A stretch of 64,000 bases of DNA from Pseudidiomarina insulisalsae (lineage in GTDB: Bacteria > Pseudomonadota > Gammaproteobacteria > Enterobacterales > Alteromonadaceae): assembly GCF_003987065.1 (NCBI RefSeq), contig NZ_PIPY01000002.1, forward strand, positions 124,001 to 188,000. The letters run 5' to 3'. The translations under genes and the position numbers were made by a program. Shown one piece after another: positions 24,242-49,147 of the stretch. Under the pieces are notes generated by a model, which had not been told where the DNA came from, made no database searches, and saw only the letters and a list, made by a program, of their open reading frames with translations. Within the stretch, counting starts at the first letter, position 1, and each line of letters opens with the position of its first letter.

Positions 24242-25606
24242 ATGTCATTATTACGCCTGTTTAGCACTTTTTTCTGTGTTGCATTTCTCGGTGCCGGCGC
24301 TCAGGCGCTACCTGCAATAGACGTTGAAACCGTGGTCCGCAATGTCAACGTAATTACCTGGGACGGTCAGCGCGCCCGCGTACAACCGCAGCAATCCATT
24401 GCCATTCGCGACGGCAACATCGTGGCGGTAGGCGACAATGTTGCGGGATCTGAAGCGGCCAAGGTCATTGACGGCAATGGCGGGTACGTGATGGCAGGTT
24501 TTACTGAAATGCACGGTCATGTGCCGGCGGCGGTCAGTTTTGGCGGTATGCCGGAGCGTTATGCCGATGACATGCTGTATCTGTATATTGCCAACGGTGT
24601 CACCACGGTGCGCGGCATGCTTGGTTATACCGATCAACTGCAACTGAAGCGCGATATCGCCGCCGGCACTCGCATGGGGCCAACGCTCGTACTTGCCGGC
24701 CCAAGTTTTAATGACCGCACCGTGACGTCGCCTGAACAGGCCGCCGAGCGCGTGCGCGAGCACGTCGCTGAAGGCTGGGATTTATTAAAAATTCACCCGG
24801 GTCTGCAACTTGACGAATACCGCGCGGTTGCCGCTGCAGCGCGTGAGGCAGGCATCGATTTTGCCGGGCATGTACCGCTTGAGGTTGGTATTGATGTCGC
24901 CATGGCCGAGGGTCAGCGTACGATCGACCACTTAGATGGCTATCTGCGTTATGTTGGCGCCATCGACCGGCCGGTAACCGGAGCAGAGCTGTCACAGTTG
25001 GTCAGTATGACGGTGGAAAGCAATACCACAGTAGTGGCTACGCAAGCACTCTGGGCGACTCTGATTGGTGCTGGCGATGCGCGGCAGTTAGCGGCTTACC
25101 CCGAAATTCTGCTGGTGCCGCAGCCCGTACGTGACGGCTGGCTTGAGTACTACCCACGCCAGGGTTCAAGTTACTTTAATGCAGACACTGCGGCTATCCA
25201 GCAGGAAAATCGCCAGCGGCTGTTAAAAGCCTTATACGAAGGTGGGGCGACCATTATCTTTGGTACTGACGCGCCACAACTTTTCAGCGTGCCAGGGTTT
25301 TCTATTCATCACGAAATTCGCTCTATGCAAGACGCCGGTATCCCCCTGGAAGCCATCTACTACACCGCAACTGCTGCTGCGTCGGATTATTTCGCCGAGA
25401 GTCACGACCTTAAAATCGGTCATGTGGCACCGGGCTATCAGGCCGACTTTATATTGCTCAAAGACAACCCGTTGGAGTCAGCCGCAGCGCTGGAGCAACC
25501 GCGCGGAGTGATGGTGCGCGGCCAATGGCTTGACCGCGCGACCATTGATGCAAGGCTTGAGGAAATTAAGGCAGCTTATGCAGCACCGCCTCATACACAG
25601 CCGTAA
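24242..25606 (+). CDS. Exported amidohydrolase (imidazolonepropionase-like)
   Basis: Secreted metal-dependent amidohydrolase of 454 residues with a signal peptide ending near AQA-LPAID. The metal-binding HxH is in FTEMHGHVPA (near 90). Further ligands are probably HVPLEVG and DHLDGYL, with the catalytic Asp in IFGTDAPQL and the C-terminal ADFILLKDNPLE typical of the superfamily. The substrate is unknown; exported members in marine gammaproteobacteria often act on peptides or dipeptides (Xaa-Arg or similar). AAGGA before the ATG. The 3' end overlaps the convergent amidase fusion by 41 bp. Confidence 0.85.
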   Translation: MSLLRLFSTFFCVAFLGAGAQALPAIDVETVVRNVNVITWDGQRARVQPQQSIAIRDGNIVAVGDNVAGSEAAKVIDGNGGYVMAGFTEMHGHVPAAVSFGGMPERYADDMLYLYIANGVTTVRGMLGYTDQLQLKRDIAAGTRMGPTLVLAGPSFNDRTVTSPEQAAERVREHVAEGWDLLKIHPGLQLDEYRAVAAAAREAGIDFAGHVPLEVGIDVAMAEGQRTIDHLDGYLRYVGAIDRPVTGAELSQLVSMTVESNTTVVATQALWATLIGAGDARQLAAYPEILLVPQPVRDGWLEYYPRQGSSYFNADTAAIQQENRQRLLKALYEGGATIIFGTDAPQLFSVPGFSIHHEIRSMQDAGIPLEAIYYTATAAASDYFAESHDLKIGHVAPGYQADFILLKDNPLESAAALEQPRGVMVRGQWLDRATIDARLEEIKAAYAAPPHTQP

Positions 25607-28028
25607 TGACACTGCCATAGTTACCCGTTTCAAACTGCTTACCCACAAACTCGTAGCCCTCGCCCTCTTCTACAATGGGCGAATGGCGCGTGTTGGTCAG
25701 TAAAATAATACCGAGATCTAAAGCTGGATCGATGACGGTTGCCGTGCCGGTCCAGCCGGTATGGCCAAAGGCCTGATGGCTTGCATAGGGACCAAAATGC
25801 CAGCGCGTTTCGCCATCAGCGGCACGGCGCCAGCCAAGCCCAAAGGAGCGATCACGCGCGTGGGGCGCGGTGAAAATATCCAGCACGCTCTGCTCGAATA
25901 AATGCACGTTGCCATAGCCGCCGCCATTGAGCAGGGTTTGCACCAAAACAGCTAAATCAGGACCGGTGGAAAACAGACCCGCATGCCCCGCGACACCTGC
26001 CATGGAGTAAAAAGCTTTTTCGTCATGCACTTCACCCTGTAGGGTGTAGGTACGGATGCCCGGAAACTCAACGCGTCCGCCACGGGTATTGCCTTGAAGC
26101 TCTGTGGCCGCATATTCATGCGCTAAGCGCCCTTTGCGTAGCGGGGTGAACAATGTGTCATGCAAACCCAACGGGGCATAGATATGCTGCTCAACATATT
26201 GATCGAGCGGCATACCACTAACACGTTCAACAATGGTACCGAGCAATTTAAAACCGGTATCGCTATAGGTCGCCTTGACCTGATTACCGATGCTGAACGG
26301 TACCTGGGTGGCGATCAGTTGCTGGGTTTTGGCTTTATCCCGCGAGTAAAATAGTTTGCCCAGTTTATTTTCCGGATCAAAAAAATGAACCTGCGGCCCA
26401 TAACCCGACTGGTGATTCAGCAAATCGCGCACACGGCGCGCTTCGCGCCCTTGCCCGCGGTATTCTGGCAGGTAGTGGTAAACCGGCGCATTGACATCAA
26501 GTAAGCCGCGCTCGACCAGATGCATCATGGCCATCGCCGTCGCAAAGGACTTGGTATTTGATGCAATATCAAAGCCGGTTTGCAGGGTCATGGGCGTTGG
26601 CGTGGGCAGCAGTTCACCATTTTCGTCGTAGCGTTTGGCATAGCCATAAGCGCTTTGTTTAATAATTTTGCCATCCTTAACCACGACCAATACTGCACCA
26701 GGAAAGCCATCGGCGATGTCCTGCTCAATTAAAGCGTCGACCTCGCTAAAGGCTTCACGATAATCATTACTGGCGTCGACGAGCATCGGATAAGGTATTT
26801 GCACGCGCAGCTGCGCACCTTCTGGCTGCACTGATTTAACAAACAAGGTATTCAGGCCGTCTTCGGTGCGACGCCGTAGCGAGTAGTTGTAGACCTTCTC
26901 GCCGCGTAGTGGCGTCGCCAGATTCAACGTCTCGCCGTTGACTTGAATCTCCGCAGTCACATCCTGGCTGGCTGAGAGGGTAATTTCGCTACGCCCCTGA
27001 TAAGCTTTAAAGCCTAACTTGTCATTTACTCCCTCTCGGCTTGAGCGTTCTGCTTCCGGCTCTGGGAAAACTGCATCAATTTGACCCTGTTTAACCTTCG
27101 TCACTATCACAGGTGTAGCGGCAGTCTCTGCTTCATACCGTTGCCATAATAACTCTAGCTGATCAGGGAAGTAGCGTTCCAGCAACGCAAATACCGCGGC
27201 ACTGGTCTGGCTGTCATTTTTGCCGTCCACCTTCCATGGCAAAAAGTGCATCTGAAAGGCTGACAACGCGCTGCGGGTTTGTTCGTCATATACGCCGGTC
27301 TCTATCACCCCGTAACCGTAGGCGCGCAACGCAGCTTGTAACAAGCCAATACGCACCGGCTGCAGATTAAACTGACGCCAGAAACGTGCCAGCGTCGCTT
27401 GCTCGTACCAGGCGCCCACCCCCTGCTGATACAGTTGGTACCAGGGAAAACGCGGACCCGGATCGTTTTTGCGCATAAAGGCGATATCAGAATGACCCAC
27501 CACCGCAGTCGGATGAATGTCCGGGTGGCGCGCTAAAATTTCCTGTGCGAGTTCAATCACTTTTTGAATTTGCTCAGGATCGTAGTCCGGGAAGGTGCAC
27601 AAACGGTTCTCGCCGTGCTCGGCCCGCCCTGGCTGCTGCCGGGTGTCCCACTGACACTTAGGTACATTGACAATCTCGATACCAATGGACGAGTCATTGA
27701 GCTCGGTGCGGCCCTGCCAATAGGAGTCGCCGGCATGCCAGGCACGGTCATGTTCATCGACCAACTGGAAGATTTTGATGTCGTCATAAGGGTAGCTGGG
27801 GTCGCCGCCCTCGGGCACCAGATAATGGGAACTTAGCCCCTTGGGTTCGACCAGCGCACGCACGCTTTTCTCATAATCAATGGCGGTGTAATGCAGTACT
27901 AACGACTTCACCCGCTGGCTGTAATTCGCCGACGGCATTTGCTCATAATCGTTACTGCTACAGCTGCTTAACGCCAGCAGCGCAAGCAGACTTAGACTCG
28001 CTTTTTTCATCACTGTTAAACTCATCAT
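25566..28028 (-). CDS. Lipoprotein fusing Amidase_2 (MurNAc-L-Ala amidase), PG-binding domain and an S12 AmiE/YfeW-like hydrolase
   Basis: Predicted periplasmic lipoprotein of 820 residues; lipobox LSSC after MKKASLSLLALLA. N-terminal Amidase_2 domain (about 35-190): zinc ligands in VLHYTA and VGHSDIA and the DPGPRFPW loop, as in AmiD/AmpD. A PG_binding_1 repeat follows (about 220-290; LQAALRAYGYGVIETGVYD), then a beta-rich linker (about 330-420). The C-terminal S12 domain (about 425-815) has SNTKS (SxxK), YSD and GHTGWTG, resembling E. coli YfeW and B. subtilis AmiE, which accompany murQ in those species. It would strip stem peptides from both oligomeric and free MurNAc. The start uses an ATGA overlap with the halogenase-like gene; the ATG at 28010 is an alternative. 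Confidence 0.85.
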   Translation of the reverse strand: MMSLTVMKKASLSLLALLALSSCSSNDYEQMPSANYSQRVKSLVLHYTAIDYEKSVRALVEPKGLSSHYLVPEGGDPSYPYDDIKIFQLVDEHDRAWHAGDSYWQGRTELNDSSIGIEIVNVPKCQWDTRQQPGRAEHGENRLCTFPDYDPEQIQKVIELAQEILARHPDIHPTAVVGHSDIAFMRKNDPGPRFPWYQLYQQGVGAWYEQATLARFWRQFNLQPVRIGLLQAALRAYGYGVIETGVYDEQTRSALSAFQMHFLPWKVDGKNDSQTSAAVFALLERYFPDQLELLWQRYEAETAATPVIVTKVKQGQIDAVFPEPEAERSSREGVNDKLGFKAYQGRSEITLSASQDVTAEIQVNGETLNLATPLRGEKVYNYSLRRRTEDGLNTLFVKSVQPEGAQLRVQIPYPMLVDASNDYREAFSEVDALIEQDIADGFPGAVLVVVKDGKIIKQSAYGYAKRYDENGELLPTPTPMTLQTGFDIASNTKSFATAMAMMHLVERGLLDVNAPVYHYLPEYRGQGREARRVRDLLNHQSGYGPQVHFFDPENKLGKLFYSRDKAKTQQLIATQVPFSIGNQVKATYSDTGFKLLGTIVERVSGMPLDQYVEQHIYAPLGLHDTLFTPLRKGRLAHEYAATELQGNTRGGRVEFPGIRTYTLQGEVHDEKAFYSMAGVAGHAGLFSTGPDLAVLVQTLLNGGGYGNVHLFEQSVLDIFTAPHARDRSFGLGWRRAADGETRWHFGPYASHQAFGHTGWTGTATVIDPALDLGIILLTNTRHSPIVEEGEGYEFVGKQFETGNYGSVITAVYEAVLHKLP

Positions 28029-29533
28029 GCCTGGCAATGTTTCCGGATAAATGCTGCGTGGCTTGGCAGTTGTGCCACCGACTGTTTAAAAATGCCCTGA
28101 ATGGTCTTTAAATGCTGCTGTAAATTGGCTGCAGGCATCTGCTCAGCCAGAGGATGCACGTTTTTTGGCGTCAGACCCTGACCATGGAACATTGAAAACC
28201 AACTGATTTCATTAAATAGCTCGTTATTACTGTTGCGAAAAATACTGGCATTTTCACGATAGAGCTCGAGCCGCTCCTGCAACGAATCGGGTATCGCCAT
28301 ATCGCGGCAATAGCGCCAAAAAGCAGAGTCATCACGCGCGGTTAACTTATAGTGACACATGACGAAATCGCGAATATTGGTGATTTCTTCAGCCGTGTAA
28401 CGGTTAAACGCGTGGGCCCTTTCTGTCATACTGCCTGCGCCTGGTAGTAAGCTAATCAAACGCATAATGCCAGATTGCGTGAGTTGCAAACCCGTCGACT
28501 CCAGCGGCTCGATGAAACCTGCGGATAGGCCGATTGCGCACACATTGTGCTTCCAGGCTTCATCCCGGCGGCCATTCATCCAACGCAAGTGATTGGCCTT
28601 GGAGTCAAAGTTGCCGATGGTTTCACGGAACTCACGCTCCGCTTTATCGCTGTCGGTAAAGCGGCTCGAATAAACCCAACCCTCGCCGGTACGATGTTGC
28701 AGCGGTATTTTCCAGCGCCAGCCCTCATGATGCGCAATCGAACGGGTATAGGGCAAAATAGTATCGGCGTCATGCTGGCCCGGCAATGCCACCGCGCTGT
28801 CACAAGGCATCCACTTACGCCAGTCATGGTATTCAACACCCAGCGCTTCACCAATGAGTAGCGCTTTAAAGCCACTGCAATCAATAAAGAAGTCAGCCTG
28901 TAGCTCGCCGTGCTGTTCCAGTATTAAGGCCTGAAGAGCACCATGCTTCTGCGCTTGTTTTGCTTCGAGCATGCGGTCTTCAAGCGCCACTACACCGCGC
29001 TGCGTAGCGTATTTTTTCAGATAGCGGGCGTACGCATGTGCGTCAAAATGATAGGCATACTTAATATGGCCCAGCGGACTGCGCTTGTCGGCAATGGGGC
29101 GACTGAATTTGTTGCCATTCGCCATACTCCACTCAAGGTTCAGCTCATGCAAAGGCATCGCCGCACCTTGCCCCTGCTCACGCTCATGGCGTAAATAATA
29201 GTGATGAAACGGCACGCCGTTTAATGTCACGCCATAAGGACCAAAGGGATGCATGTACGCATCGCCAATGTTCTGCCAATTCTCGAAAGCGATACCCAGC
29301 TTAAAACTACCCTGGGTTTCACGCAAAAACTCGTCCTCGTCAATCTGTAGCAGTTGGTTGAATTCACGTATGCCCGGAATGGTCGCTTCGCCAACGGAAA
29401 CCGTGCCGATGGCGGACGACTCCACCAGAGTGAGTTTGTAGTGCTTTTGATCGAGCACTTTGGCAAGAGCCGCGGCAGTCATCCAACCGGCGGAGCCGCC
29501 ACCGAGAATGACAATGTGATAAGGCTGAGTCAT
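28025..29533 (-). CDS. FAD-dependent tryptophan halogenase family protein in TonB-receptor operon
   Basis: Flavoprotein of about 502 residues. It has the N-terminal FAD fold GGGSAGWM (9-16), SVGEATIPGIREF, the halogenase-type lysine in SFKLGIAFENW, and the diagnostic WRWKIP in HEGWRWKIPLQHRTG (near 270). In known members these residues support oxidation of chloride to hypohalous acid and halogenation of tryptophan. No biosynthetic cluster or flavin reductase is nearby; it sits between a TonB receptor and a peptidoglycan amidase. Such halogenase-like genes are often found beside TonB receptors in Alteromonadales and Caulobacter, with unknown substrate. The ATG at 29533 is preferred over the frame's 29563 because the FAD motif then starts at the normal distance. 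Confidence 0.85.
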   Translation of the reverse strand: MTQPYHIVILGGGSAGWMTAAALAKVLDQKHYKLTLVESSAIGTVSVGEATIPGIREFNQLLQIDEDEFLRETQGSFKLGIAFENWQNIGDAYMHPFGPYGVTLNGVPFHHYYLRHEREQGQGAAMPLHELNLEWSMANGNKFSRPIADKRSPLGHIKYAYHFDAHAYARYLKKYATQRGVVALEDRMLEAKQAQKHGALQALILEQHGELQADFFIDCSGFKALLIGEALGVEYHDWRKWMPCDSAVALPGQHDADTILPYTRSIAHHEGWRWKIPLQHRTGEGWVYSSRFTDSDKAEREFRETIGNFDSKANHLRWMNGRRDEAWKHNVCAIGLSAGFIEPLESTGLQLTQSGIMRLISLLPGAGSMTERAHAFNRYTAEEITNIRDFVMCHYKLTARDDSAFWRYCRDMAIPDSLQERLELYRENASIFRNSNNELFNEISWFSMFHGQGLTPKNVHPLAEQMPAANLQQHLKTIQGIFKQSVAQLPSHAAFIRKHCQA

Positions 29534-29618
29534 GGACACATTCACCCAAAAGCTGAAGGCCAAAATAGCTGCGGCCAGCCGAAGCTGACCGCAGTACCTC
29601 TTACTTCCTGCTATTAAC

Positions 29619-32495
29619 TTAGAAGTTGTAAGTCAGTTGCAGGGTGTACGAGCGACCACGAGGGTCGGCGACACGCGGGTCGAACGCTGCACCAGGCGAG
29701 TAATCGTTCTGGTGTGCAGTGAACGGTGGATCGCGGTCAAACAGGTTCTTGATACCGAAAGTGATATCCCAGTCTTCCAGCGCCATGTAACGTACGCTGT
29801 AGTTGTAGATAGTGTAGCTACCTACTTCGCCGTCATAGTACGTTGGGAAAGCGATGCCTGATTGCACACCTGGTGGGATCTCATCGTCATAGGCATGACG
29901 ATAAATCTGCGTCAGGTTATGGGCAAAGTCACCTTTTGCATAGTTAAATACAATGGTGTGCTTCCAACGCAGCGGGATATTACCACGTGAGTGCGTACCA
30001 ACTAAGTTGTCGCCCCACTGTGCGTTGTCGAGGAGTTTTTTCTTATCCTCAATCAGGTAGCTACCATTGAAGTTAACGTCCCACAAACCGCCGGCGAGCT
30101 CGCCGTTGGACTGAATACCCACTTCAATACCGGTCGTTTCACGCTCACCTGCGTTGATGTAACGCGAGTCGATGGTTACCAGGTTACCCTCTGAGTCACG
30201 AATAAAGTTGTCTTCGAATAACTCGTAGTTTTCAATTAAGTCGCGCAGACTCGGAACCTGAATAGTACCGTCGATGACAATGCGCCACCAGTCAACGTTC
30301 ATTGAGAAGCTGTCATTCGGCGCATAGACCACACCAAAGCTTTGCTGCTTCGACTCTTCCGGGCCTAAGTCTTCTTTACCACCGAACAGTCGGGTTGGCT
30401 GAATGGCTTCGTCACAGTTTGGATCACTTGCGTCCACTTCACCGTTCGGACAGTCGCGCGGGTCAGCAAGATCCTGCCCCGTATAAGGCACTTCAGTTAC
30501 ACCATTAAACAACTGATTGAAAGATGGGGTCCGGAAACCAGTACTGTAGGCACCGCGAACCAAGACATCTTCCGTCGGTGTCCACATCAGGCCAACTTTC
30601 GGATTCGTGGTACCGCCAAAACCATCATAGTGGTCATAACGAACCGCAAGGTTCATTTCGAAAGTCTCAACCACCGGTACTAGCGTCTCAACAAAGACCG
30701 CTTTTACCGTACGATCGACGTCATCAAGTTCGTTGGCATTATCAAAAGGAGCGCCATAAATTTCAGGACGATCGGCCGCTTCACGGCGGTCGCCATTAAA
30801 CTCATAACCCTCATTGCGAATATCAATACCACCAGCAACATAAATATTGTCGCCGCCCAAGCCAAGGTTGAAACCCGAGTCGCCGGTAATTGAAGCATCA
30901 AACTGGGTCAATGTGGTTTTGCCGCCATAAAGAATGACGCCTTCAGCTGAGGCCGCTGCCAGTGCTGCCATGCCAGCTTCAGACTGTGACTGACTTGGTA
31001 ATAAGAACGGGTTGATCGCCCCGCTACCGATACCTTGTGCCAGCAAGCTGGTGTAATGGTAACCGCCACCAAGTTGTGACTCTGACTCATTGGTTGCATG
31101 GCCTAAGCCAACACGGTAATCCCAAAAGCCGATCTGGCCTTCGACACCAAACTGAATTTTCATCGCCTGGGTGGTGGTTTCAATTTCACGCGGACCACAG
31201 TCCATACAACGCCAGCGATATGCAATCGGCGCGCCGATATTCAACTGGTCAGCACCATAATAATCGGTCAAAGCATCAACGATATAGTCGTATGACTCGC
31301 CAGTACTTGGGTACCAGCCTTCGCGACCAATTGACCAAGGGGTAATCTGATTCGGTTCAAATACTTTTTCTGAAGTGACTTCTGAGCCCATTAACTCGAC
31401 AAAGCCTTCGGCATTGTCGCCCAGGGTCATGGTCGCGCGGCCCACGAAGTCAACACTGTCAACCGGCTGTTGCAAGGCTGCAGCACGAGGATAGTCCCAG
31501 GCACAACTGACACCAGAGTTGCGCGCACGGTTCCAAAGCTCAGCAGCGTCAGGACCCATATTAGGGTAGACGTCACAGCCTGGCATGCCAGGTAGCGCAA
31601 GAACGTTCAGTACGTCGTTCTCAAGGCCGGTGTTCGGGTTAATGAGTCCAGTACCGATCAGGTTGTAGTTCGGACTGGTAGGGTCATCGCCACCCGGACG
31701 GTCATTCAGTGACGCGAACGGTGTACCACGGGTATCTGGCGACAAACCACTTTCTGGCTGGAAGGTGTTGGTGAAATCACGATCAACACCGCGCAGAATT
31801 TCTGCTTTGCGGTATGACAGTGATGCCATAACATTGTAGCCATCTGAATAAAGGTCACCGGTACCAGCAAGCGCGTTTACACGATAGATATTACCGCCAC
31901 CAGCTTCAGTGTGATCGACAAAGGTACCGACCTGCGCGCCCTGGTAGTCTTTTTTCAGGATGAAGTTAATAACACCACCGATTGCATCGGTACCGTAAAC
32001 GGCTGATGCACCGTCACGTAATACTTCAACGCGCTCAATGGCAGAAAAAGGAATTGAGTTCAGGTCAACTGACCGGCCTTTAAGACCGTGTGTCGCTGTG
32101 CGACGACCGTTTAACAGAACAAGTGTAGAACCTGAGCCCTGCTGACGCAGGTTGGCGCTTGATGCACCATTATTGCCGCGCTCTTCACCACTTACGATAC
32201 CGGTATTACTGGCCAGGTTGTCGTTTGAATTTGAAGCAACGTTCAGTTGTAACATTAACTGCTCTGCAGTCGTGATTCCCTGCGCATCAATCTCTTCACG
32301 CGAAATAACAGTCAGCGGTAAATCGCCTTCTATCGCGGTACGCTTAATGCTGGAACCTGTGACTGAAATTCGTTCAACTTTTTCTGCTTCTTCGTTTTGC
32401 TGTGTGTTCTCTTCTTGACCAACATCCTGAGCATAAGCCATACCGCTCATACTCGTGGTTAGTCCCAGCACGAGTGCTATTTTATTGAGTTTCAC
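29619..32495 (-). CDS. Large TonB-dependent receptor, probable peptidoglycan-fragment/oligosaccharide receptor
   Basis: Outer-membrane receptor of 958 residues with a signal peptide ending AYA-QDVG. A Q/E-rich stretch and the TonB-box-like ERISVTGSSIKR follow. The plug reads GSTLVLLNGRRTATHG and RVEVLRDGASAVYGTDAIGGVINFILKK, the style of carbohydrate and peptide receptors in Alteromonadales rather than siderophore receptors. The barrel ends in YTLQLTYNF. It is first gene of the operon with the halogenase-like protein and the amidase fusion, and its promoter region carries the same 16-mer as the divergent nagZ promoter. No Fur box was seen. Import of muropeptides or peptidoglycan chains is inferred from context only. 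Confidence 0.85.
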   Translation of the reverse strand: MKLNKIALVLGLTTSMSGMAYAQDVGQEENTQQNEEAEKVERISVTGSSIKRTAIEGDLPLTVISREEIDAQGITTAEQLMLQLNVASNSNDNLASNTGIVSGEERGNNGASSANLRQQGSGSTLVLLNGRRTATHGLKGRSVDLNSIPFSAIERVEVLRDGASAVYGTDAIGGVINFILKKDYQGAQVGTFVDHTEAGGGNIYRVNALAGTGDLYSDGYNVMASLSYRKAEILRGVDRDFTNTFQPESGLSPDTRGTPFASLNDRPGGDDPTSPNYNLIGTGLINPNTGLENDVLNVLALPGMPGCDVYPNMGPDAAELWNRARNSGVSCAWDYPRAAALQQPVDSVDFVGRATMTLGDNAEGFVELMGSEVTSEKVFEPNQITPWSIGREGWYPSTGESYDYIVDALTDYYGADQLNIGAPIAYRWRCMDCGPREIETTTQAMKIQFGVEGQIGFWDYRVGLGHATNESESQLGGGYHYTSLLAQGIGSGAINPFLLPSQSQSEAGMAALAAASAEGVILYGGKTTLTQFDASITGDSGFNLGLGGDNIYVAGGIDIRNEGYEFNGDRREAADRPEIYGAPFDNANELDDVDRTVKAVFVETLVPVVETFEMNLAVRYDHYDGFGGTTNPKVGLMWTPTEDVLVRGAYSTGFRTPSFNQLFNGVTEVPYTGQDLADPRDCPNGEVDASDPNCDEAIQPTRLFGGKEDLGPEESKQQSFGVVYAPNDSFSMNVDWWRIVIDGTIQVPSLRDLIENYELFEDNFIRDSEGNLVTIDSRYINAGERETTGIEVGIQSNGELAGGLWDVNFNGSYLIEDKKKLLDNAQWGDNLVGTHSRGNIPLRWKHTIVFNYAKGDFAHNLTQIYRHAYDDEIPPGVQSGIAFPTYYDGEVGSYTIYNYSVRYMALEDWDITFGIKNLFDRDPPFTAHQNDYSPGAAFDPRVADPRGRSYTLQLTYNF

Positions 32496-38750: not shown

Positions 38751-38786
38751 GCAGATCTTCTGCAAGCTCTCAAAAGGTGGGACACG

Positions 38787-40822: not shown

Positions 40823-41751
40823 AACTGCGACTCCACCGCGGCGCGTAAGAAGCCATTCTGCTGCGCCAGCAGTTGCTCGGCGGTCGTTGCGTCAAGTCCG
40901 GTCAGGATCATCAGAATGGCCAGTTTCGCGCGGTTATCTGCGGCTTTCAGTGCCTGCTCGGCCACCTCGCGCTCGCAGTCGGTGGCCTGCATGACAATAC
41001 GAATGGCGCGTGCCCGCAACTTTTCGTTACTGGCGTTCACGTCAACCATCAGGTTCTCGTATGACTTGCCAAGGCGGATCATGCTGGCGGTGCTGAGCAT
41101 ATTCAGCACCAACTTCTGCGCCGTTCCCGACTTCATACGGGTGGAACCGGTTAAGGCCTCGGGCCCTACCACCGGGCAAATACCAATGCTGGCGGTGTTC
41201 ATTAACGGGGAGTCAGGGTTACAAGTTACAGCCACGCTGACTGCTTTGATGCTGTTTGCGTACTCAAGAGCCGCGACGACATAAGGCGTGCGGCCACTGG
41301 CCGAGAGCCCGACCAGCACGTCATTAGCACTAAGGTTGACCGCCTGCACATCGGCAACGCCAGCCTCGCGGTCATCTTCTGCGCCTTCAACGGCAAACTG
41401 AATGGCTTGCTCACCGCCGGCAATAATGCCCTGCACCAGATCATCAGGCACGCTGAACGTCGGACGGCACTCCACTGCGTCGAGAATACCGAGCCGGCCA
41501 CTGGTACCGGCGCCGATGTAGAATAACCGCCCGCCTTGCTGCAGTTTATCGACAATAGCATCCACCGCCTGTGCAATTTGCGGAACCTCGGTTGCCACCG
41601 CCGGCGCGACTTTGGCGTCTTCATGATTAATTTTTCGCAAAATGGCTTCGCTCGATAGCAGGTCAATATCGAGCGTGTCAGGGTTACGCCCTTCGGACAC
41701 GATACTATTAAGTTGTGCCAGCAAATCTTCCGTTTTCTTTATGTTTTCCAT
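40819..41751 (-). CDS. murQ: N-acetylmuramic acid 6-phosphate etherase
   Basis: Splits MurNAc-6-P to GlcNAc-6-P and D-lactate; cytoplasmic, 310 residues, the normal length. The SIS fold reads [18 protein letters not shown] followed by the catalytic glutamate in VECRPTFS, a second glutamate in [12 protein letters not shown], then [11 protein letters not shown] and [13 protein letters not shown]-terminal UBA-like helical part is present ([14 protein letters not shown]). It overlaps the symporter by 13 bp upstream and namZ by 4 bp downstream, so symporter-murQ-namZ is one operon. It is the step that commits MurNAc to catabolism. Confidence 0.96.
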
Positions 41752-43328: not shown

Positions 43329-43360
43329 AATCCTTCGCTTTGCTTCTACATTGTGCCCAT

Positions 43361-43376
43361 AAAATAAATTATTCCA
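43361..43376 (-). promoter_or_regulatory. GGAATAATTTATT operator of the symporter-murQ-namZ operon
   Basis: The minus strand reads TGGAATAATTTATTTT, identical over 16 bp to the site before nagZ (32872-32887). It lies 33 bp before the symporter ATG. Two further half-sites TGGAAT are at 43392 and 43405, 13 bp apart. Likely RpiR (MurR) binding region. Confidence 0.62.
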
Positions 43377-43442
43377 CCCACAAAGTATAGATGGAATATA
43401 AATTTGGAATAAAAAGAGGGGGCTGCCCCCCCTTGCCAAATG

Positions 43443-44729
43443 TTATAGGCGGGTGGTGAGGAGTTGCTGGATGGTGCGGCGCAGCAGGTCCTCGAGCTTG
43501 GCGCCGGCGTGGCCGACGTTGGCTTCGGTGTTGTCGTCGACGCTGGTCTGCGCGGCGATAGTGAACTCGCGGGTGCCGTCGTGCAGTGGCAGGCAGATGT
43601 GCGCTAAGGCAACGACTTCGCTGGTGCCACGGGTTTCGCTGGGTCCGGCGCCGAGCTTATGGAAAATACGCCAGTTGCCGCCGGTTGCGGTATCTAAGGT
43701 GTCCTGCAGGCTGCGTCCGGCAAGAATGGGGTATTGCGCCTGCAACGCCTTTGCCACTGCGCGATGCGGCATCAGACTGGCACCGGCCATCATGCCACCG
43801 GCGTTGGCCACATTCTCACTATGCCCCGGACCATAAAACAGCATCATGACAGCGTCGTCACTGACCCCCGGCAGGCGCGTCTCAGGCACGCGTTTGTGCG
43901 TGGCGAGGCGTTTTAAAAACTCGGCCGAGGCCAATGTTGTCATTGGTTTATTACCGGTCAGGCCGCAGTCTTCGCAACGATAGGTCAAAGCGCCGGGATC
44001 ATTGTCTCGGGCGACAAACTGGGCGCTGACAAAACGCGACGGCGTACGCCAATAATTATCTTCCGGCACGAACGCAGAAGGACCATAGGCCCCGCGAAAC
44101 TTAACTTCGGGCTGGCCAATATTCAGCCATGCGTCGTGAAACAACGCGGTCAGGTAGTCGCGCCCGGCAAGGTTGGCAAAGTAATAGGCGATAGCGTTCG
44201 AGTTGCCATCGGCCAGCCCGGAGCTCTCATAGCTATGAACGCTGGTGATTAAGTCGGCGAGCTTCACGTCACCGACCAGGGTATCGGGCTGGGCCAAATT
44301 CGCACTCACCAACGACATGGCGCCAGCATACGCCATCACTTTTGAAGAACTCCACGGCTCATATAAGTCGTCATGCGTGCGCGCATTGGCAAGGTAACGA
44401 AATGCCAGTTCATCGCCCTTTTGCGCATAATCAATCACCAATACTTTCCCATCCTCCACCGAGGCCGGGAAAAAGGTCCAGTCGTGCACCGTCTGCTCAA
44501 CCCAGCCCTCGCCGGTGCCGGTCTCGGCCACGGTCGCATAGTTTTCATTGTCCGCAGCGACGGTTGGCGCGCAGGCCTGCCAACGTGGCTCTGGTTGCGC
44601 CGGCAGCAGTGGCGGTGCCCCCATGATCTGCTCATAATAAGTCAGACCTTCCGGCTCCTGCTCGGCAGTACAGGCCACTAACGGCAGAAAGGCGCACAGG
44701 CTCATCAGGCATTTTGTTGTATTTTTCAT
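43443..44729 (-). CDS. Lipoprotein of the serine beta-lactamase/PBP-like superfamily
   Basis: 428 residues, predicted lipoprotein with lipobox LVAC. The catalytic-looking residues are SSSK in EPWSSSKVMAYAGAM (near 131), an S-x-N type DGNSNAIAYY (near 175) and KLGAG (KTG-like, near 365). Two cysteines occur as CEDCG near 250. I cannot assign it to a named family; it could be a D,D- or L,D-specific peptidase of muropeptides. It lies alone between the kinase operon (divergent) and the symporter operon, upstream in the same direction as the latter. AAGGAA serves as ribosome site and lies inside an AT-rich GGAATAATAAGGAAT motif. Confidence 0.65.
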   Translation of the reverse strand: MKNTTKCLMSLCAFLPLVACTAEQEPEGLTYYEQIMGAPPLLPAQPEPRWQACAPTVAADNENYATVAETGTGEGWVEQTVHDWTFFPASVEDGKVLVIDYAQKGDELAFRYLANARTHDDLYEPWSSSKVMAYAGAMSLVSANLAQPDTLVGDVKLADLITSVHSYESSGLADGNSNAIAYYFANLAGRDYLTALFHDAWLNIGQPEVKFRGAYGPSAFVPEDNYWRTPSRFVSAQFVARDNDPGALTYRCEDCGLTGNKPMTTLASAEFLKRLATHKRVPETRLPGVSDDAVMMLFYGPGHSENVANAGGMMAGASLMPHRAVAKALQAQYPILAGRSLQDTLDTATGGNWRIFHKLGAGPSETRGTSEVVALAHICLPLHDGTREFTIAAQTSVDDNTEANVGHAGAKLEDLLRRTIQQLLTTRL

Positions 44730-44734
44730 CGTTT

Positions 44735-44772
44735 GATTCCTTATTATTCCCAGTTCAAGAATAAAGTATTAC
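44735..44772. promoter_or_regulatory. AT-rich operator candidate in the divergent lipoprotein / GlcNAc-kinase promoter
   Basis: The minus strand reads GGAATAATAAGGAAT over 44736-44750; on the plus strand AAGAATAAAGTATTAC follows at 44757-44772. Both resemble the shared GGAATAATTTATT motif, though less exactly. The gap of 111 bp serves two operons: the lipoprotein (minus) and kinase-SIS-nagA-nagP (plus). Confidence 0.4.
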
Positions 44773-44840
44773 AAATCGAGAGGCAAAGTATGGCAGTATG
44801 TTGGCCATTAACGCACACGAACTCATAAGAAAGATAGTCT

Positions 44841-45755
44841 ATGACGCACGAAACGACGCCTTTATCGCCAGCCGGTACGCTTTACGCTGGCATTGACGGG
44901 GGTGGCACTAAATGTCGGGCCGAATTGTACAACGCCGATGGCAAGCTATTAGGCGCTGGCATTGCCGGCGCAGCCAATATCGCCCGTGACAGTGAAATCG
45001 CCAAGCGATCCATACTGGATGCGGTTACCGCGGCGGTTAGTGAGGCGCAACTGCCGCCTGAAAGCCTTGGACAGATACGCGCTTGTGGTGGCTTTGCCGG
45101 CGCTAATTTGCCCTCAGCTGCGAATATAATGCGTCAGTGGCAGCACCCTTTTCAGAGTTTTGACTTCAGTTCAGATCTGCACACAGCACTGTATGGCGCC
45201 CACAATGGCGAAAATGGCGCGGTACTGGTCATCGGCACCGGCTCCTGTGCCGCTGCGCTGGTAAGCGGTCAGCTACAACAGTTCGGCGGTCACGGTTTCT
45301 TACTGGGCGATAAAGGCAGTGGCGCCTGGTTGGGTAAGCAAGCGGTCATTCATACGCTGGAAGCTATTGATGGCATTCAGCAGCACGGCGCGCTTGCCGC
45401 CGCCGTGCAAGCTCATTATCAATGTCACAGCGCCACCGCTTTAGTCGACAAACTCAATCAGGCTCACCCCGGGGTGTTTGGTGAGTTATGCCCGCTGATA
45501 CTGCAACTTGCCAATGATGGTGAAGCTAGCGCCAGGGCGCTGGTAGCCGAAGGCAGTACTTACCTGAGCGCTATAGCCCGCAAAGCCCTGCAAAACAGCG
45601 GCGGTAAGTTAGTGCTCACCGGTGGCGTTGCGGGTGCGCTGCAGCGGTGGCTCGATACCGACATTCGCGAACAGCTGAGTACGAGCCACTATGGCCCCGA
45701 GTGGGGTGCGATTATGCTCTACCAAAACGGAGGCATGCCAAGCCATGGTAACTGA
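44841..45755 (+). CDS. BadF/BadG-family amino-sugar kinase (GlcNAc, perhaps also MurNAc)
   Basis: ATP-dependent kinase of the ASKHA fold, 304 residues: phosphate-1 motif GIDGGGTKCRAEL (16-28), VIGTGSCAAAL (near 131), GHGFLLGDKGSGAWLG (near 152) and the adenosine motif VLTGGVAG (near 255). It would form GlcNAc-6-P for NagA. Clostridium MurK, of the same family, phosphorylates both GlcNAc and MurNAc; no other candidate MurNAc kinase lies in the window although murQ needs MurNAc-6-P. First gene of the operon kinase-SIS-nagA-nagP; it overlaps the next gene by 11 bp. Confidence 0.87.
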   Translation: MTHETTPLSPAGTLYAGIDGGGTKCRAELYNADGKLLGAGIAGAANIARDSEIAKRSILDAVTAAVSEAQLPPESLGQIRACGGFAGANLPSAANIMRQWQHPFQSFDFSSDLHTALYGAHNGENGAVLVIGTGSCAAALVSGQLQQFGGHGFLLGDKGSGAWLGKQAVIHTLEAIDGIQQHGALAAAVQAHYQCHSATALVDKLNQAHPGVFGELCPLILQLANDGEASARALVAEGSTYLSAIARKALQNSGGKLVLTGGVAGALQRWLDTDIREQLSTSHYGPEWGAIMLYQNGGMPSHGN

Positions 45756-46743
45756 AACACGCATGCAGCAAGAGGCCCTGGCGGTCCCCCAGGTCATTGC
45801 CGCGCAACTCGAGGCCAACGCAGGACGCTGCGCCGCCTTAGGTGCCGCACTGCGCGAAACGCCACCGCAGGCCATCATGATGATCGGTCGTGGCACCTCC
45901 GATCATGCCGGTGTGTTCGCCAAATATCTGTTTGAAGTTGAAGCAGGCATTCCGGTATTCGCTGCCGCACCCTCCGTTGCCGGCATTTACCAGCGACAGT
46001 TAAAGCTTGAGAACTGTCTGGCGATTTGTATTTCGCAGTCCGGACAAAGCCCCGATATTGTCCAGCAAGCCGAGCTGGCAAAAGCCGGGGGTGCCAAACT
46101 AATCGCGATCGTCAATGTTACCGACTCACCGCTGGCGCGCCTCGCTGATACGGTACTGCCGCTGCACGCGGGACCGGAACTGGCGGTCGCCGCGACCAAA
46201 AGCTACCTGGCCAGTCTAAGCGTCCTGGTACAAATGTGTGCCTACTGGCAACAGAGTCACCAGTTGCATGCCGCACTAGAACAGCTGCCAGAGCAGCTGC
46301 AGCAGGCCCAAAACGAACCTGCAATGCTACATACCGAACACCTGCAACAGCTGCGCCACTGCGTAGTACTCGGTCGCGGCTTTGGCTATGCCATCGCCCG
46401 TGAAGTGGCACTTAAGCTCAAAGAAGTTCTGGGCATTCACGCCGAGGCATTCAGTAGTGCTGAGTTTTTGCACGGCCCGGTCACTCTGGTCGAGAAGCAC
46501 TTGACGGTATTTAATATTCACATTCATGATGAAGGCAGCACGATGCATCAGCGCCAACTGGCCGATATTGAACAACGTGGTGCCGAGGTTATTCAGATGA
46601 AAGCCCCTGCGAACATGCACCCGCGCCTACAGCCACTGGCGGTCATGCAGCGCTTCTATCTGGACATTGAACACGCCGCGCGACAGCTGGGCCTGAATCC
46701 CGATGCGCCGCCAGGTCTGAAAAAAGTTACGGAAACCCACTAA
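45745..46743 (+). CDS. nagB-II: SIS-domain glucosamine-6-phosphate deaminase (NagB-II type)
   Basis: Turns GlcN-6-P into Fru-6-P and ammonia; 332 residues with two SIS domains (about 30-160 and 195-320). MMIGRGTSDHAGVFAKYLFE, CISQSGQSPDIV and AATKSYLASL resemble the isomerase half of GlmS, as in NagB-II of Shewanella. The start is put at 45745 with GGAGG 11 nt upstream; a longer open frame reaches 45691, inside the kinase gene. Its stop overlaps nagA (TAATG). With NagA and the kinase it gives the full GlcNAc route. Confidence 0.87.
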   Translation: MVTETRMQQEALAVPQVIAAQLEANAGRCAALGAALRETPPQAIMMIGRGTSDHAGVFAKYLFEVEAGIPVFAAAPSVAGIYQRQLKLENCLAICISQSGQSPDIVQQAELAKAGGAKLIAIVNVTDSPLARLADTVLPLHAGPELAVAATKSYLASLSVLVQMCAYWQQSHQLHAALEQLPEQLQQAQNEPAMLHTEHLQQLRHCVVLGRGFGYAIAREVALKLKEVLGIHAEAFSSAEFLHGPVTLVEKHLTVFNIHIHDEGSTMHQRQLADIEQRGAEVIQMKAPANMHPRLQPLAVMQRFYLDIEHAARQLGLNPDAPPGLKKVTETH

Positions 46744-47867
46744 TGTTTGTTTGCGATTACGTCCTTACCCCCAAAGGCTGGCAACATCATCAGCAGGTCA
46801 GCGTTGAGCATGGCCGTATTGTCAGTGTCAGCGATGCTCCTGAAGACCACCAGTTACCCACTTATCATGGACGCCTGGTTCCCGGCTTCATTGACGTACA
46901 AGTAAATGGTGGCGGTGGCGTGCTGTTTAACCAACAGCGCTCACCAAAAGCATTGCGCCACATCATGGCGGCGCACCTTGAGCATGGCACCACCGGCATG
47001 TTGCCCACGCTTATTACAGACAGCATAGAAGCCATGACCGACGCCGCTCAGGCCATTAAAGATGCCAAACAACAAGGCGTTGCCGGCATTCTGGGGGTAC
47101 ATTTTGAAGGCCCCTGGCTGTGCAGCAAACGCAAAGGGGTACATAGCGAAAAGTATATTCGTGAACCCAGCGAAGAAGAGCTTGCGTTACTCACCGACCC
47201 CGAGCTGGGATTGGTTATGGTGACACTCGCGCCGGAAACTGCCTCTACTACCATCATCAGTAAGCTGGCGAATGCGGGCATCAAAGTCTTCTTAGGCCAC
47301 TCCGACGCCAGCGCAGAACAGGTGAACGAGGCGTTAAAAGCCGGTGCCGTGGGCTTTACCCATTTATACAATGCCATGTCGCAACTGCATTCCCGCGCAC
47401 CAGGCATGGTGGGTGTTTGTCTGGCCAGCGACGCCTATGCCGGACTGATTGTTGATGGCTTTCATGTCGACCCACAAGCCTGTCAGGTTGCCTTTCGGGC
47501 GAAAGGCAAAGGCCAGATGATGCTGGTCACCGATGCCATGGCGCTGGCCGCGACCGATGCTACCGAAGTTGATTTTTTTGACACCAAAATTCGCCGCAAA
47601 GGCAATAAGCTGACCACCCCCGACGGCACGCTGGCGGGCTCCTGCCTGACCATGATCGAAGCGGTTAAAAATACCGTGAACCTTTGCGACATGCCCTTAG
47701 CTGACGCGATTGAAATGGCGAGCCTGACCCCGGCCAAAATGCTTGGCATTGCCCACGAGGTAGGCAGCATTGCCCCGGGCCACCAGGCCAATTTTATGCT
47801 CTTAGATGAACACTTGAATATCGCGCAACTCTGGTTGCACGGCGAAACCACCCGTAAGGACGCGTAA
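46743..47867 (+). CDS. nagA: N-acetylglucosamine-6-phosphate deacetylase
   Basis: Zinc amidohydrolase, 374 residues. Metal ligands are in HFEGPWL (Glu), FLGHSDAS (His) and FTHLYNAM (His), with the catalytic Asp in LVTDAMALA; PGFIDVQVNGGGG is the conserved start of the barrel. It removes acetate from GlcNAc-6-P coming from the kinase or from MurQ. It starts inside the previous stop (TAATG) and ends 2 bp before the transporter gene. Confidence 0.95.
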   Translation: MFVCDYVLTPKGWQHHQQVSVEHGRIVSVSDAPEDHQLPTYHGRLVPGFIDVQVNGGGGVLFNQQRSPKALRHIMAAHLEHGTTGMLPTLITDSIEAMTDAAQAIKDAKQQGVAGILGVHFEGPWLCSKRKGVHSEKYIREPSEEELALLTDPELGLVMVTLAPETASTTIISKLANAGIKVFLGHSDASAEQVNEALKAGAVGFTHLYNAMSQLHSRAPGMVGVCLASDAYAGLIVDGFHVDPQACQVAFRAKGKGQMMLVTDAMALAATDATEVDFFDTKIRRKGNKLTTPDGTLAGSCLTMIEAVKNTVNLCDMPLADAIEMASLTPAKMLGIAHEVGSIAPGHQANFMLLDEHLNIAQLWLHGETTRKDA

Positions 47868-47869
47868 TC

Positions 47870-49147
47870 ATGGCAACCTTTATTCCCATGCTGGTTATTG
47901 GCTTACTGTTTTTTATTTTTGGCTTCGTGACTTGGCTAAACGGCGCGCTGATCCCCTTTTTGCAGACTATTTCGGATCTCAACGAGTTTCAGGCCCTGCT
48001 GATCGCGTTTTGCTTTTACATTGCCTACGTGGTGATGGCGCTGCCTATGTCATGGGTGCTTGACCGCACCGGCTATAAAAATGGCATGGTGCTTGGGCTT
48101 GCTCTCATCGGCTGTGGCCTGCTGTTGTTTGTACCTGCCGCGCAAACGCATCTGTTTGGCATCTTTTTGCTGGCGCAGTTTGTCGTCGGCTCCGGGCTGA
48201 CCATTTTACAAACCGCCTCAAACCCTTACATTGTGCGCATTGGCCCTCACGATTCTGCCGCGGCGCGAATTGCTATTATGGGCATTTTGAATAAAGCCGC
48301 CGGGGTTATCGCGCCATTATTTTTCACCTGGCTGGTACTGGCTGACTTCCCCAACGTGAGCGCGGCGAGTATGGCCGAACTGAGCGCGGTTGAGCGTGCC
48401 GCCCAAGTGAATGCTATGGCGGCCAAAATTATTCCGCCCTACGTTGGTATGGCTATTGCTATGTTCGTACTGGCGGGTGCTTTTTACCTGGTACGTCTGC
48501 CTAAAATTAAAGAAGAACCGCCAAGCGGTGCCGCAGTACATGAGTCGGTGTTAAAATATCCGCAGCTGGTACTTGGTGCCATTGCCTTGTTTTTCTATGT
48601 GGGTGTTGAGGTCATTGCCGGTGACACCATTGGTATGTATGGCTCAAAGCTGGGCCTGGCGAATTATTCCAGCCTGACCTCGTACGTCATGACCGCCATG
48701 GTAGTCGGTTATGTACTTGGTTTAATCCTCATTCCACGCTGGCTGAGCCAGCAAGGCGCGCTGACGGGCTCTGCGCTATTAGGCGTTATTTTTACCGGTT
48801 TACTGTTAGTTAGCTCCGACACCAGCACAACCATCGCTAGCGTGCTTTGGGGCTGGAGCGGCGCACCGCTGGTGCCTGACTCGGTAGCCTTTTTAGCGCT
48901 ACTTGGCTTCGCCAACGCCATGGTCTGGCCCGCCATCTGGCCTCTGGCGCTGGCAGATTTAGGCAAATTCACCGCCCGTGGCTCGGCCATCTTAATTATG
49001 GGTATTGCCGGCGGCGCGATTTTACCCCTGGTTTATGGTGCTTTGGCGGACGCTTTCAGCAGCAAAAGTGCCTACGCATTCTTGCTGGTCGGTTATGTCA
49101 TCATCGGCTGGTATGGCTTGCAGGGACACAAGAAACGGAGCTGGTAA
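47870..49147 (+). CDS. nagP: MFS sugar permease, NagP/FucP type (GlcNAc import)
   Basis: Inner-membrane carrier, 425 residues with 12 helices, of the GGP/FucP branch of the major facilitator family. FGFVTWLNGALIPFLQ in helix 1 and LQTASNPYIVRIGP in helix 4-5 are typical; GYVIIGWYGLQGHKKRSW ends it. In Shewanella the same position in the nag cluster is taken by NagP, the GlcNAc permease. It is the last gene of the operon, 2 bp after nagA. A short TTCAGG/CCTGAA hairpin (49185-49200) follows without a T run on this strand. Confidence 0.87.
   Translation: MATFIPMLVIGLLFFIFGFVTWLNGALIPFLQTISDLNEFQALLIAFCFYIAYVVMALPMSWVLDRTGYKNGMVLGLALIGCGLLLFVPAAQTHLFGIFLLAQFVVGSGLTILQTASNPYIVRIGPHDSAAARIAIMGILNKAAGVIAPLFFTWLVLADFPNVSAASMAELSAVERAAQVNAMAAKIIPPYVGMAIAMFVLAGAFYLVRLPKIKEEPPSGAAVHESVLKYPQLVLGAIALFFYVGVEVIAGDTIGMYGSKLGLANYSSLTSYVMTAMVVGYVLGLILIPRWLSQQGALTGSALLGVIFTGLLLVSSDTSTTIASVLWGWSGAPLVPDSVAFLALLGFANAMVWPAIWPLALADLGKFTARGSAILIMGIAGGAILPLVYGALADAFSSKSAYAFLLVGYVIIGWYGLQGHKKRSW

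Follow-up and report, generated by a model that had tools for sequence, protein, structure and literature searches.

Does a single stretch of DNA from the marine gammaproteobacterium Pseudidiomarina insulisalsae encode a route by which bacterial peptidoglycan would be consumed, and how does this route relate to the salvage of wall sugars in its closest relatives? The stretch, referred to here as the window, comprises 64,000 nucleotides (positions 124,001 to 188,000 of contig NZ_PIPY01000002.1) of a genome of 2.56 Mb that is 99.66% complete. An earlier note on this DNA had described the region 25,566–49,147 as a nearly complete locus for uptake and catabolism of peptidoglycan. The linked gene set indeed looks built for dismantling and consuming bacterial wall material, as judged from its sequence. 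We hold with good confidence that this main locus and a peptide-side cluster to its left form one regulated system, which would convert peptidoglycan fragments into central metabolites and would have replaced the AmgK-MurU salvage route in this lineage.

Every part that the note had named is present in the main locus at the level of the family (Pfam and NCBIfam scans of 19 proteins between 24,242 and 54,015; Pfam was run over 29 window proteins in total), and all the enzyme families are known ones, except for that of a 428-residue lipoprotein. A lipoprotein gene at 25,566–28,037 (minus strand) encodes an Amidase_2 domain (AmpDh3/AmiD-like), a PG_binding_1 domain and an S12 domain of the PBP4B/YfeW family (Pfam, NCBIfam, PDB); the S12 half scores 459.9 bits on the NCBIfam PBP4B model (cut-off 385), and the nearest PDB matches of the amidase half are AmpDh3 and AmiD. 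It is followed by a flavin-dependent halogenase family gene (Trp_halogenase, Pfam; 28,025–29,563, minus), which the note had overlooked, and by a TonB-dependent receptor (Pfam; 29,619–32,495, minus). The GH3 lipoprotein (32,952–34,775, plus) is predicted to be a NagZ-type β-N-acetylglucosaminidase from Pfam, from NCBIfam (188.8 bits on the NagZ equivalog model, under the cut-off of 207) and from the NagZ Asp-His signature KHFPGHGDTHVDSH at residue 216. An M14 metallopeptidase, possibly MpaA-like and without recognisable lipobox or signal (Pfam; 34,755–35,906, minus), precedes a dehydrogenase of the GlcD/YdiJ/Dld-II type (Pfam, NCBIfam; 35,903–38,653, minus), a candidate D-lactate dehydrogenase whose domains (FAD_binding_4, FAD-oxidase_C, 4Fe-4S and CCG) fit several 2-hydroxyacid dehydrogenases. 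The RpiR-family regulator (HTH_6 and SIS; Pfam, NCBIfam; 38,787–39,635, plus) is MurR-like. For these last three proteins the family assigned by the note stands; the match of the M14 protein to the MpaA model is weak (31.7 bits, cut-off 157; it is over its Pfam cut-off), the regulator scores 178.7 bits on the Escherichia coli MurR model (cut-off 408), which places it in the family and not as an equivalog, and specificity for D-lactate is not given by sequence.

The genes for N-acetylmuramic acid (MurNAc) are those of a putative NamZ exo-β-N-acetylmuramidase lipoprotein (Pfam; 39,632–40,822, minus; NamZ_N 270.1 bits, cut-off 26.9, and NamZ_C 101.2 bits, cut-off 25), the MurNAc-6-phosphate etherase MurQ (40,819–41,751, minus; TIGR00274, 413.6 bits, cut-off 302) and a sodium:solute symporter (SSS), a candidate MurNAc importer recognised by its family match (SSF family, 200.1 bits, cut-off 184; 41,739–43,328, minus). 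The open reading frame (ORF) of the symporter as listed extends to 43,439, and the ATG at 43,328 is its probable true start; the symporter ORF runs a few bases into that of MurQ, so that no kinase gene lies between them. The unclassified 428-residue lipoprotein, with SSSK and KLG motifs, which the note had also overlooked, is encoded at 43,443–44,729 (minus). The remaining genes are on the plus strand: a BadF-type N-acetylglucosamine (GlcNAc) kinase, NagK-like (Pfam, NCBIfam; 44,841–45,755; 293.1 bits on the NagK model, under the cut-off of 370), the glucosamine-6-phosphate deaminase NagB-II (SIS; NCBIfam; 45,691–46,743; 500.1 bits, cut-off 430), the GlcNAc-6-phosphate deacetylase NagA (NCBIfam; 46,743–47,867; 306.5 bits, cut-off 225.65) and a NagP-type transporter of the major facilitator superfamily (NCBIfam; 47,870–49,147; 482 bits, under the cut-off of 625). 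Lipobox-like motifs are present in the amidase-S12, GH3, NamZ and 428-residue proteins. No domain of the phosphotransferase system (PTS) is found in the 18 proteins scanned between 24,242 and 51,950, and the SSS symporter stands beside MurQ instead. The organisation proposed by the note is thus borne out as a prediction: a TonB receptor and exported enzymes for processing muropeptides are combined with a transporter outside the PTS and the genes leading to fructose-6-phosphate.

The note's description of the locus as near-complete is too narrow, as the system is larger: 9 kb to the left of the main locus there is a peptide-side cluster that the note had overlooked and that has the same repeat (see below). 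It starts with an NhaC-type Na+/H+ antiporter family transporter (Na_H_antiporter; Pfam/NCBIfam; 10,041–11,414), followed by an S12 serine hydrolase with DUF3471, AmpH/D-peptidase-like (Pfam/NCBIfam; 11,430–13,028), alanine racemase (Alr; 13,043–14,146; TIGR00492, 361.3 bits, cut-off 168), an NlpC/P60 and SH3_6 peptidase, probably cleaving stem peptides (Pfam; 14,218–15,660), and an enolase-superfamily protein resembling L-Ala-D/L-Glu epimerases (15,673–16,776; NF041118, 259.7 bits, under the cut-off of 500), all on the plus strand. The window therefore carries both halves, sugar and peptide, of a predicted wall-degrading pathway, because in relatives the peptide-side genes join the sugar-side ones. 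In three genomes of the genus (G001, G013 and G015), the amidase-S12 gene has the genes for S12, Alr, NlpC/P60 and epimerase as its direct neighbours, and in a Pseudoalteromonas locus (L030) the NlpC/P60, epimerase-like and YkuD genes form one run with the SSS, kinase, MurQ and NamZ genes (Pfam). ORFs of similar or equal length, identified by length alone, occupy that place in six more Pseudoalteromonas loci and in Neptunicella.

The conservation of the set was examined by searches of a genome collection, on which all genome-wide statements rest. The genus is here a grouping made by the genome search, of 26 genomes including the present one, and its members without the locus may carry other names; the marker searches were all run on the same 59 nearer genomes. 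NamZ, MurQ (over cut-off), the BadF kinase, the 428-residue lipoprotein and the long exported GH3 protein are each found in the same 12 of the 26 genus genomes (G000–G005, G007, G012, G013, G015, G016 and G018; loci L001–L012) and in none of the other 14, a pattern that reflects few ancestral events and mostly shared descent, not 26 independent trials. Completeness is lower for G001 (77%), G015 (86%) and G023 (88%). The amidase-S12 protein and the TonB receptor are also present in all 12 locus genomes, the window and 11 others, the receptor match of G001 being in two pieces. The core order DldII-RpiR-NamZ-MurQ-SSS is kept in each of the 12 genomes having NamZ, and the grouping is therefore more than chance. 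The 14 other genomes, which are of the MurU type described below, lack the locus; in all six of them that were examined at this site (G008, G009, G010, G021, G022 and G025), the 24-kb block is absent between the flanking genes, which lie together in a somewhat altered order with no space for it. Two further candidates for such an empty site were rejected and are not counted: in G014 (L174) the region matched only the M17 gene of the neighbourhood, and in G011 (L175) it was the wrong region. Likewise, the S12, NlpC/P60 and epimerase genes are absent from the site of the peptide-side cluster in the same six MurU-type genomes, in which the NhaC and Alr genes adjoin with nothing between them; this applies to that site only.

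In genomes outside the genus the co-location of the parts is incomplete, and the note's expectation of a co-located block instead of scattered orthologues therefore holds within the genus and to a lesser degree beyond it. This was seen with named relatives, the best 80 of 566 NamZ matches, of which 54 are from Bacteroidota and 20 are gammaproteobacterial loci besides the named Pseudidiomarina. The named relatives nearest to the window are Pseudidiomarina themselves, the NamZ protein of P. aquimaris being 76% identical. Runs of SSS, kinase, MurQ and NamZ genes occur in 13 named relatives (L025–L033, L036, L038, L041 and L044), from Pseudoalteromonas, Neptunicella, Paraglaciecola and Rheinheimera, and in these the BadF kinase gene lies between symporter and MurQ, a kinase position that is not occupied in the window. 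The D-lactate sink that the note had proposed is in agreement with the genomic context, as the dehydrogenase gene lies near NamZ in 4 of the 20 other gammaproteobacterial loci (Neptunicella, Colwellia and two Alteromonas) and also in the genome G030; the flanks retrieved for the remaining 16 showed none. Among the Bacteroidota, 48 of 54 NamZ loci have no other locus gene nearby (tblastn, 1e-8), and the architecture is thus not seen there at this sensitivity.

An operator-like repeat of 15 base pairs links the main locus and the peptide-side cluster, as far as sequence can tell. The repeat, TTGGAATAATTTATT, came from a comparison of intergenic stretches. Two exact sites lie between the TonB receptor and GH3 genes (32,644–32,658, minus, and 32,871–32,885, plus), one with a single mismatch is upstream of the symporter (43,363–43,377, minus), two with two mismatches are between the 428-residue and kinase genes (44,760–44,774, minus) and upstream of NhaC and the peptide-side cluster (9,966–9,980, plus), and the weakest, with three mismatches, is upstream of NlpC/P60 and overlaps the end of the racemase gene (14,142–14,156, minus). 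A seventh window match lies within a gene, at 5,548, and none lies between the dehydrogenase and regulator genes in the window. The receptor/GH3 pair (at least 13/15) and the kinase site recur in all six named Pseudidiomarina, the kinase site with the same 15 bases, and the symporter site is found at 14/15 in five of them. When considering the peptide side, the NhaC site is present in 8/8 locus genomes fetched, whereas six of six MurU-type genomes have no match of at least 12/15 there (the best, 11/15, is in G008); the NlpC/P60 site reaches at least 12/15 in six of the eight. A palindromic form, TGGAATAATATATTCCA, or one base off it, precedes the symporter in 7/7 Pseudoalteromonas loci with an SSS gene; none was found upstream of SSS in G030 (L209) at 13/15. 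With at least 13/15 required, the six locus stretches contain 25 matches (1.97 per 10 kb) and the eight peptide-side stretches contain 13 (0.82 per 10 kb), against 2 (0.10 per 10 kb), 0 and 0 in three control sets, the stretches being from related genomes and so not independent.

In the proposed system, fragments would enter through the TonB receptor and the amidase-S12 protein would strip off the stem peptide, in the periplasm or at the outer membrane, after which the GH3 and NamZ lipoproteins would release GlcNAc and MurNAc from the ends of the sugar chain. The symporter would take up MurNAc and NagP would take up GlcNAc; the single BadF kinase would phosphorylate both sugars, MurQ would convert MurNAc-6-phosphate into GlcNAc-6-phosphate and D-lactate, NagA and NagB-II would lead the sugar to fructose-6-phosphate, and the FAD/FeS dehydrogenase would oxidise the D-lactate. 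The peptide would be consumed by the S12, NlpC/P60, epimerase, alanine racemase and M14 enzymes. The RpiR-type regulator would repress the set at sites of the TTGGAATAATTTATT type until MurNAc-6-phosphate appears. The parts with their order and co-occurrence, the empty sites, the repeats, the absence of MurU and the residues lost from AmgK are read directly from sequence, whereas the activities, the substrate of the receptor, the direction of transport, the binding of the regulator, its inducer and the origin of the fragments in other cells are all predicted. Feeding on foreign walls is plausible when considering these genes; predation is not implied by them.

The step that is least easily assigned is the phosphorylation of MurNAc. 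Each of the 12 Pseudidiomarina locus genomes has a single BadF match, the NagK-like one, whose gene in the window is in the nag operon, and the BadF search found no dedicated MurNAc kinase in them. With no kinase gene between symporter and MurQ, this implies either a dual-sugar kinase or a kinase that was not recognised. In MurK of Tannerella forsythia, S133-P134-L135 is reported to discriminate MurNAc, and for one homologue a histidine at that place is described as clashing with the lactyl group (PMC10465942, available text). The corresponding residues are G-G-H in seven aligned Pseudidiomarina kinases and G-G-W or S-G-W in the kinases encoded between symporter and murQ, their positions being taken from the spacing to the GD motif that follows (D141 in that paper), as MurK was not part of the alignment. 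The same text states that MurNAc binding is not identifiable from sequence, that MurK acts also on GlcNAc in long assays and that human NagK is reported to phosphorylate muramyl dipeptides (PMC10465942). The PDB entry 8zo3, named as a MurNAc/GlcNAc kinase, matches the window kinase at E 6e-10. The favoured reading is that the BadF kinase acts on both GlcNAc and MurNAc, with the chances about evenly balanced.

The lack of a dedicated kinase, the histidine and the shared descent behind the genus pattern weigh against the proposed system, and so do the following observations. The GH3, NagK, NagP, epimerase and MurR assignments are all under the NCBIfam cut-offs, and for the TonB receptor only general Pfam models, and no NCBIfam model, are over cut-off; neither the Pseudoalteromonas loci nor the 19.9-kb loci of G029 and G030 gave a match to this receptor. 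The protein scans revealed no glycan hydrolase of the endo-acting kind, and the system may therefore handle fragments only. The seven matches of the repeat in the window at up to three mismatches (1.32 expected; none of 100 shuffles gave seven) are not an independent test, as the repeat was derived from the window itself, and at 11/15 the region upstream of SSS shows no copy in L023 (a named Pseudidiomarina), L027, L040 and L042.

What the proposed system would have replaced is seen when comparing the genomes of the genus. Beta- and gammaproteobacteria are reported to hold either MurQ or AmgK-MurU, and Idiomarina loihiensis is listed with amgK and murU (PMC5371407, available text). Over the cut-offs, 26 of the 59 genomes have MurQ only, 27 have MurU only, one has both and five have neither, one of the latter (G036) having a MurU match of 224.7 bits, narrowly under the cut-off of 250. 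Within the genus the split is exact: MurU is over cut-off in 14/14 genomes without MurQ and in 0/12 genomes with it. The single genome with both, G034 (L195), has an AmgK that keeps the catalytic residues. AmgK itself is present in 23/26 genus genomes, all 14 of the MurU type and nine of the 12 locus genomes. In these nine the orphan amgK keeps its place between lptD and djlA, djlA following it directly, whereas in the MurU type murU lies between amgK and djlA; in G013 and G015 lptD adjoins djlA and both amgK and murU are gone, and in G001 the contig ends short of this site. The orphan gene of the present genome, a type common to the nine, is outside the window (L159, 13,721–14,725) and its product matches NF045759 with 196.1 bits (residues 4–323, E 8e-58), under the cut-off of 550.

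The orphan AmgK proteins differ from the MurU-paired copies at conserved positions, as shown by an alignment with 13 of the latter (nine from the genus and four others, out of 28 genomes with MurU over cut-off). In 9/9 orphan proteins HRK replaces the HRD of 13/13 paired copies, TGFH[DH] stands in place of IDFQD (likewise 9/9 and 13/13), and FGD[AG]RPWRYYR is found where the paired copies have a loop of the [SCT]GDA type. The aspartates of HRD and DFxD are presumably the catalytic base and the metal ligand of the APH fold, and the orphan AmgK is apparently kinase-dead, as judged from these residues. The idea that the locus genomes hold both complete MurNAc routes is ruled out by the MurU search and this alignment. 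The orphan gene is apparently under purifying selection and not decaying: its ratio of non-synonymous to synonymous rates (dN/dS) is 0.040 (G018 versus G007) and 0.066 (G002 versus G005), near the values of 0.024 and 0.071 for DjlA in the same pairs, and of the differences between G018 and G007, 43 are synonymous and 6 non-synonymous (p 9e-23 when tested against no selection). Synonymous sites are saturated in the remaining 34 of the 36 pairs. A MupP candidate (strong TIGR01449 match, 163–194 bits) is present in 23/26 genus genomes. In G008 and G012 it is flanked on one side by a UbiG-like ORF, itself next to GyrA, and on the other by NrdA/NrdB-like ORFs (identities judged by eye from the N-terminal residues). 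The candidate is missing in G000, G007 and G018, all of them locus genomes, and kept in the other nine; missing in only three of 12, the phosphatase step does not separate the groups.

The nine genomes with orphan AmgK form a clade (support 100), and G001, G013 and G015 form another one. A tree of DjlA and LptD and a tree of eight proteins both place G013 apart from the nine, with branch supports of 24–50 and 29–34, respectively, and the approximately unbiased (AU) test rejects a single clade for all 12 (p-AU 0.0186; fast search, one model, G030 excluded for its long branch). Two separate switches to the locus are likely on these trees, with weak support for the backbone. It may tentatively be proposed that the genus switched at least twice from AmgK-MurU rebuilding to NamZ-MurQ consumption, and that the kinase-dead AmgK of the larger clade is kept by purifying selection and may now sense a sugar or nucleotide to coordinate wall metabolism; this combined scenario is somewhat doubtful. 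With MurQ and AmgK-MurU states and an apparent kinase-dead relic within one genus, a natural experiment is provided, in which comparisons of near relatives can address what caused the swap and what it costs.

The genes kept by the locus genomes also bear on the strongest alternative, that the locus mainly recycles the cell's own wall, with extracytoplasmic processing and a TonB receptor recapturing lost fragments. AnmK is present in 26/26 genus genomes and so is kept in all 12 locus genomes, none of which has MurU over cut-off; the product of AnmK would most likely go to MurQ, and MurNAc-6-phosphate derived from the cell's own wall is therefore probably a substrate of MurQ as well. This is in agreement with the murQ-murR-murP-amiE-nagZ-ybbC operon of Bacillus subtilis, which is reported to recycle through MurQ (PMC5061867). 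However, a second, short NagZ-like GH3 protein is kept in all 26 genomes alongside the exported one of the locus, so that intracellular recycling seems to have its own enzyme. The receptor, NamZ, the GlcNAc transporter, the peptide-degrading genes and the dehydrogenase also exceed the known needs of recycling. Recycling as the main role is thus rather unlikely; within the proposed system, foreign feeding and own-wall recycling may share the MurQ route.

A further alternative, that a Shewanella Nag-type locus for chitin oligosaccharides and GlcNAc has had MurNAc genes added and that the TonB receptor imports chitin oligosaccharides, is still less probable. NagB-II is over cut-off, the best-scoring models for NagK and NagP are those of Shewanella (SO), and Nag pathways of the Shewanella type come with TonB receptors; yet none of NamZ, MurQ and amidases of the AmiD/AmpDh3 type is known to attack any part of chitin, no chitinase domain is found by Pfam in 29 window proteins, to which this search was confined, and the repeat lies upstream of GH3, of SSS-MurQ-NamZ and of the peptide-side cluster. 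That the genes are chance neighbours from several systems is very improbable: they do lie in several operons on both strands, the Trp_halogenase and M14 genes are absent from their usual places in G013 and G015, and the parts are only partly together outside the genus, but against this stand the co-occurrence of the five markers, the conserved order, the empty sites and the repeat common to the operons.

In comparison with known systems, the sugar end resembles the GlcNAc pathway of Shewanella (NagK, NagB-II, NagA and NagP; NCBIfam SO3507, SO3506 and SO3503); here the Nag genes are divergent from the MurNAc genes and have the same operator-like repeat, with NagK and NagP under their cut-offs. 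Unlike a SusC/SusD polysaccharide utilisation locus of Bacteroidota, no SusD-type lipoprotein or SusD domain occurs among the locus proteins scanned. The ybbC gene of B. subtilis is presumably namZ. The B. subtilis operon, as far as the available text describes it (PMC5061867), shares with the present locus MurQ, MurR, NagZ, NamZ, a muropeptide amidase and processing outside the membrane; here there is a Gram-negative envelope with a TonB receptor and no PTS, and Nag genes, a dehydrogenase and the peptide cluster are added. With the E. coli murR-murQ-murP-yfeW divergon (same source), MurQ, an RpiR-type regulator and an S12 protein of the PBP4B/YfeW family are shared, whereas here symporter and kinase replace the PTS permease MurP, the S12 domain is fused to an AmiD/AmpDh3-like amidase, and exported glycosidases are added. 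A further likeness is with the murTKQ operon of T. forsythia and its adjoining peptidoglycan-salvage cluster (PMC5790795, PMC7670621 and PMC10465942, in their available parts), in which a MurNAc transporter of the sodium-symporter superfamily goes with MurQ and uptake is independent of the PTS, as predicted here; NamZ enzymes are also known in that organism, from the title of a reference. In comparison with it, Pseudidiomarina has no symporter-murQ kinase and no AmpG-like protein among the scanned block proteins, and it adds the RpiR regulator, the candidate D-lactate dehydrogenase, the TonB receptor and the Nag genes, in a gammaproteobacterial host. A marine relative, Pseudoalteromonas sp. 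CF6-2, which uses pseudoalterin to prey on Gram-positive bacteria, is able to grow on peptidoglycan and to utilise the D-amino acids in it (PMC6962226); that work concerns a secreted protease and amino acids, and the terms MurNAc, amino sugar and TonB are absent from its main text.

The note had called this organisation not well described, and in the open-access literature no description of it in this group of bacteria was found, nor of the combination, the regulon or the within-genus swap with a conserved kinase-dead AmgK, most subscription papers being beyond the scope. The locus therefore presents a candidate route of peptidoglycan consumption, with a predicted operator, in a marine gammaproteobacterium. 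Peptidoglycan is a nitrogen-rich polymer that has been discussed as a food of deep-sea microbes (PMC11044484, available text).

The 428-residue lipoprotein has no Pfam or NCBIfam match at E 0.001, no meaningful match in a PDB sequence search and no match among viral contigs. It is found in 15 of the 59 nearer genomes, the 12 locus genomes and G029, G030 and G034; among 274 genomes of the class there is, beyond the own genome, one marginal match (E 3e-4, in a stretch with a stop). In five Pseudoalteromonas loci (L026 and L028–L031) its gene is the first of the run that precedes the symporter. An alignment of ten sequences shows W126, S128, S129, K130 and K358-[LI]-G360 to be conserved; S127, with which SxxK begins, is a glycine in the Pseudoalteromonas copy at L026, 1,873–3,240. 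Two AlphaFold models are poor (mean predicted local distance difference test (pLDDT) scores of 49.5 and 54.7), and Foldseek searches with these low-confidence models gave best E values of 1.7e-3 and 1.1e-3, none being below 0.001. By their titles, the 50 matches listed per model are serine β-lactamases or penicillin-binding proteins, save a few without a protein name. It is probable from these models that the protein has the penicillin-binding/β-lactamase fold, and it likely acts as a wall peptidase. These lipoproteins, seen only in members of the same bacterial family, probably form a new penicillin-binding-like family.

Some smaller features of the region can be noted. The Trp_halogenase gene sits between the TonB receptor and the wall hydrolase; it adjoins the receptor gene in nine of the 12 locus genomes and is not there in G001, G013 and G015. 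In P. sediminum (L024, 3,957–5,962), one of the six named relatives, nagB is absent between nagA and nagK at this locus. The genes at 50,394–51,950 and 11,430–13,028 both encode S12 proteins with DUF3471 and, together with the fused S12 domain, give three S12 domains within 41 kb. A second TonB receptor and a PepSY_TM protein are encoded at 5,844–9,055 of the window, and they are found at the same place in 10 of the 14 relatives examined there.

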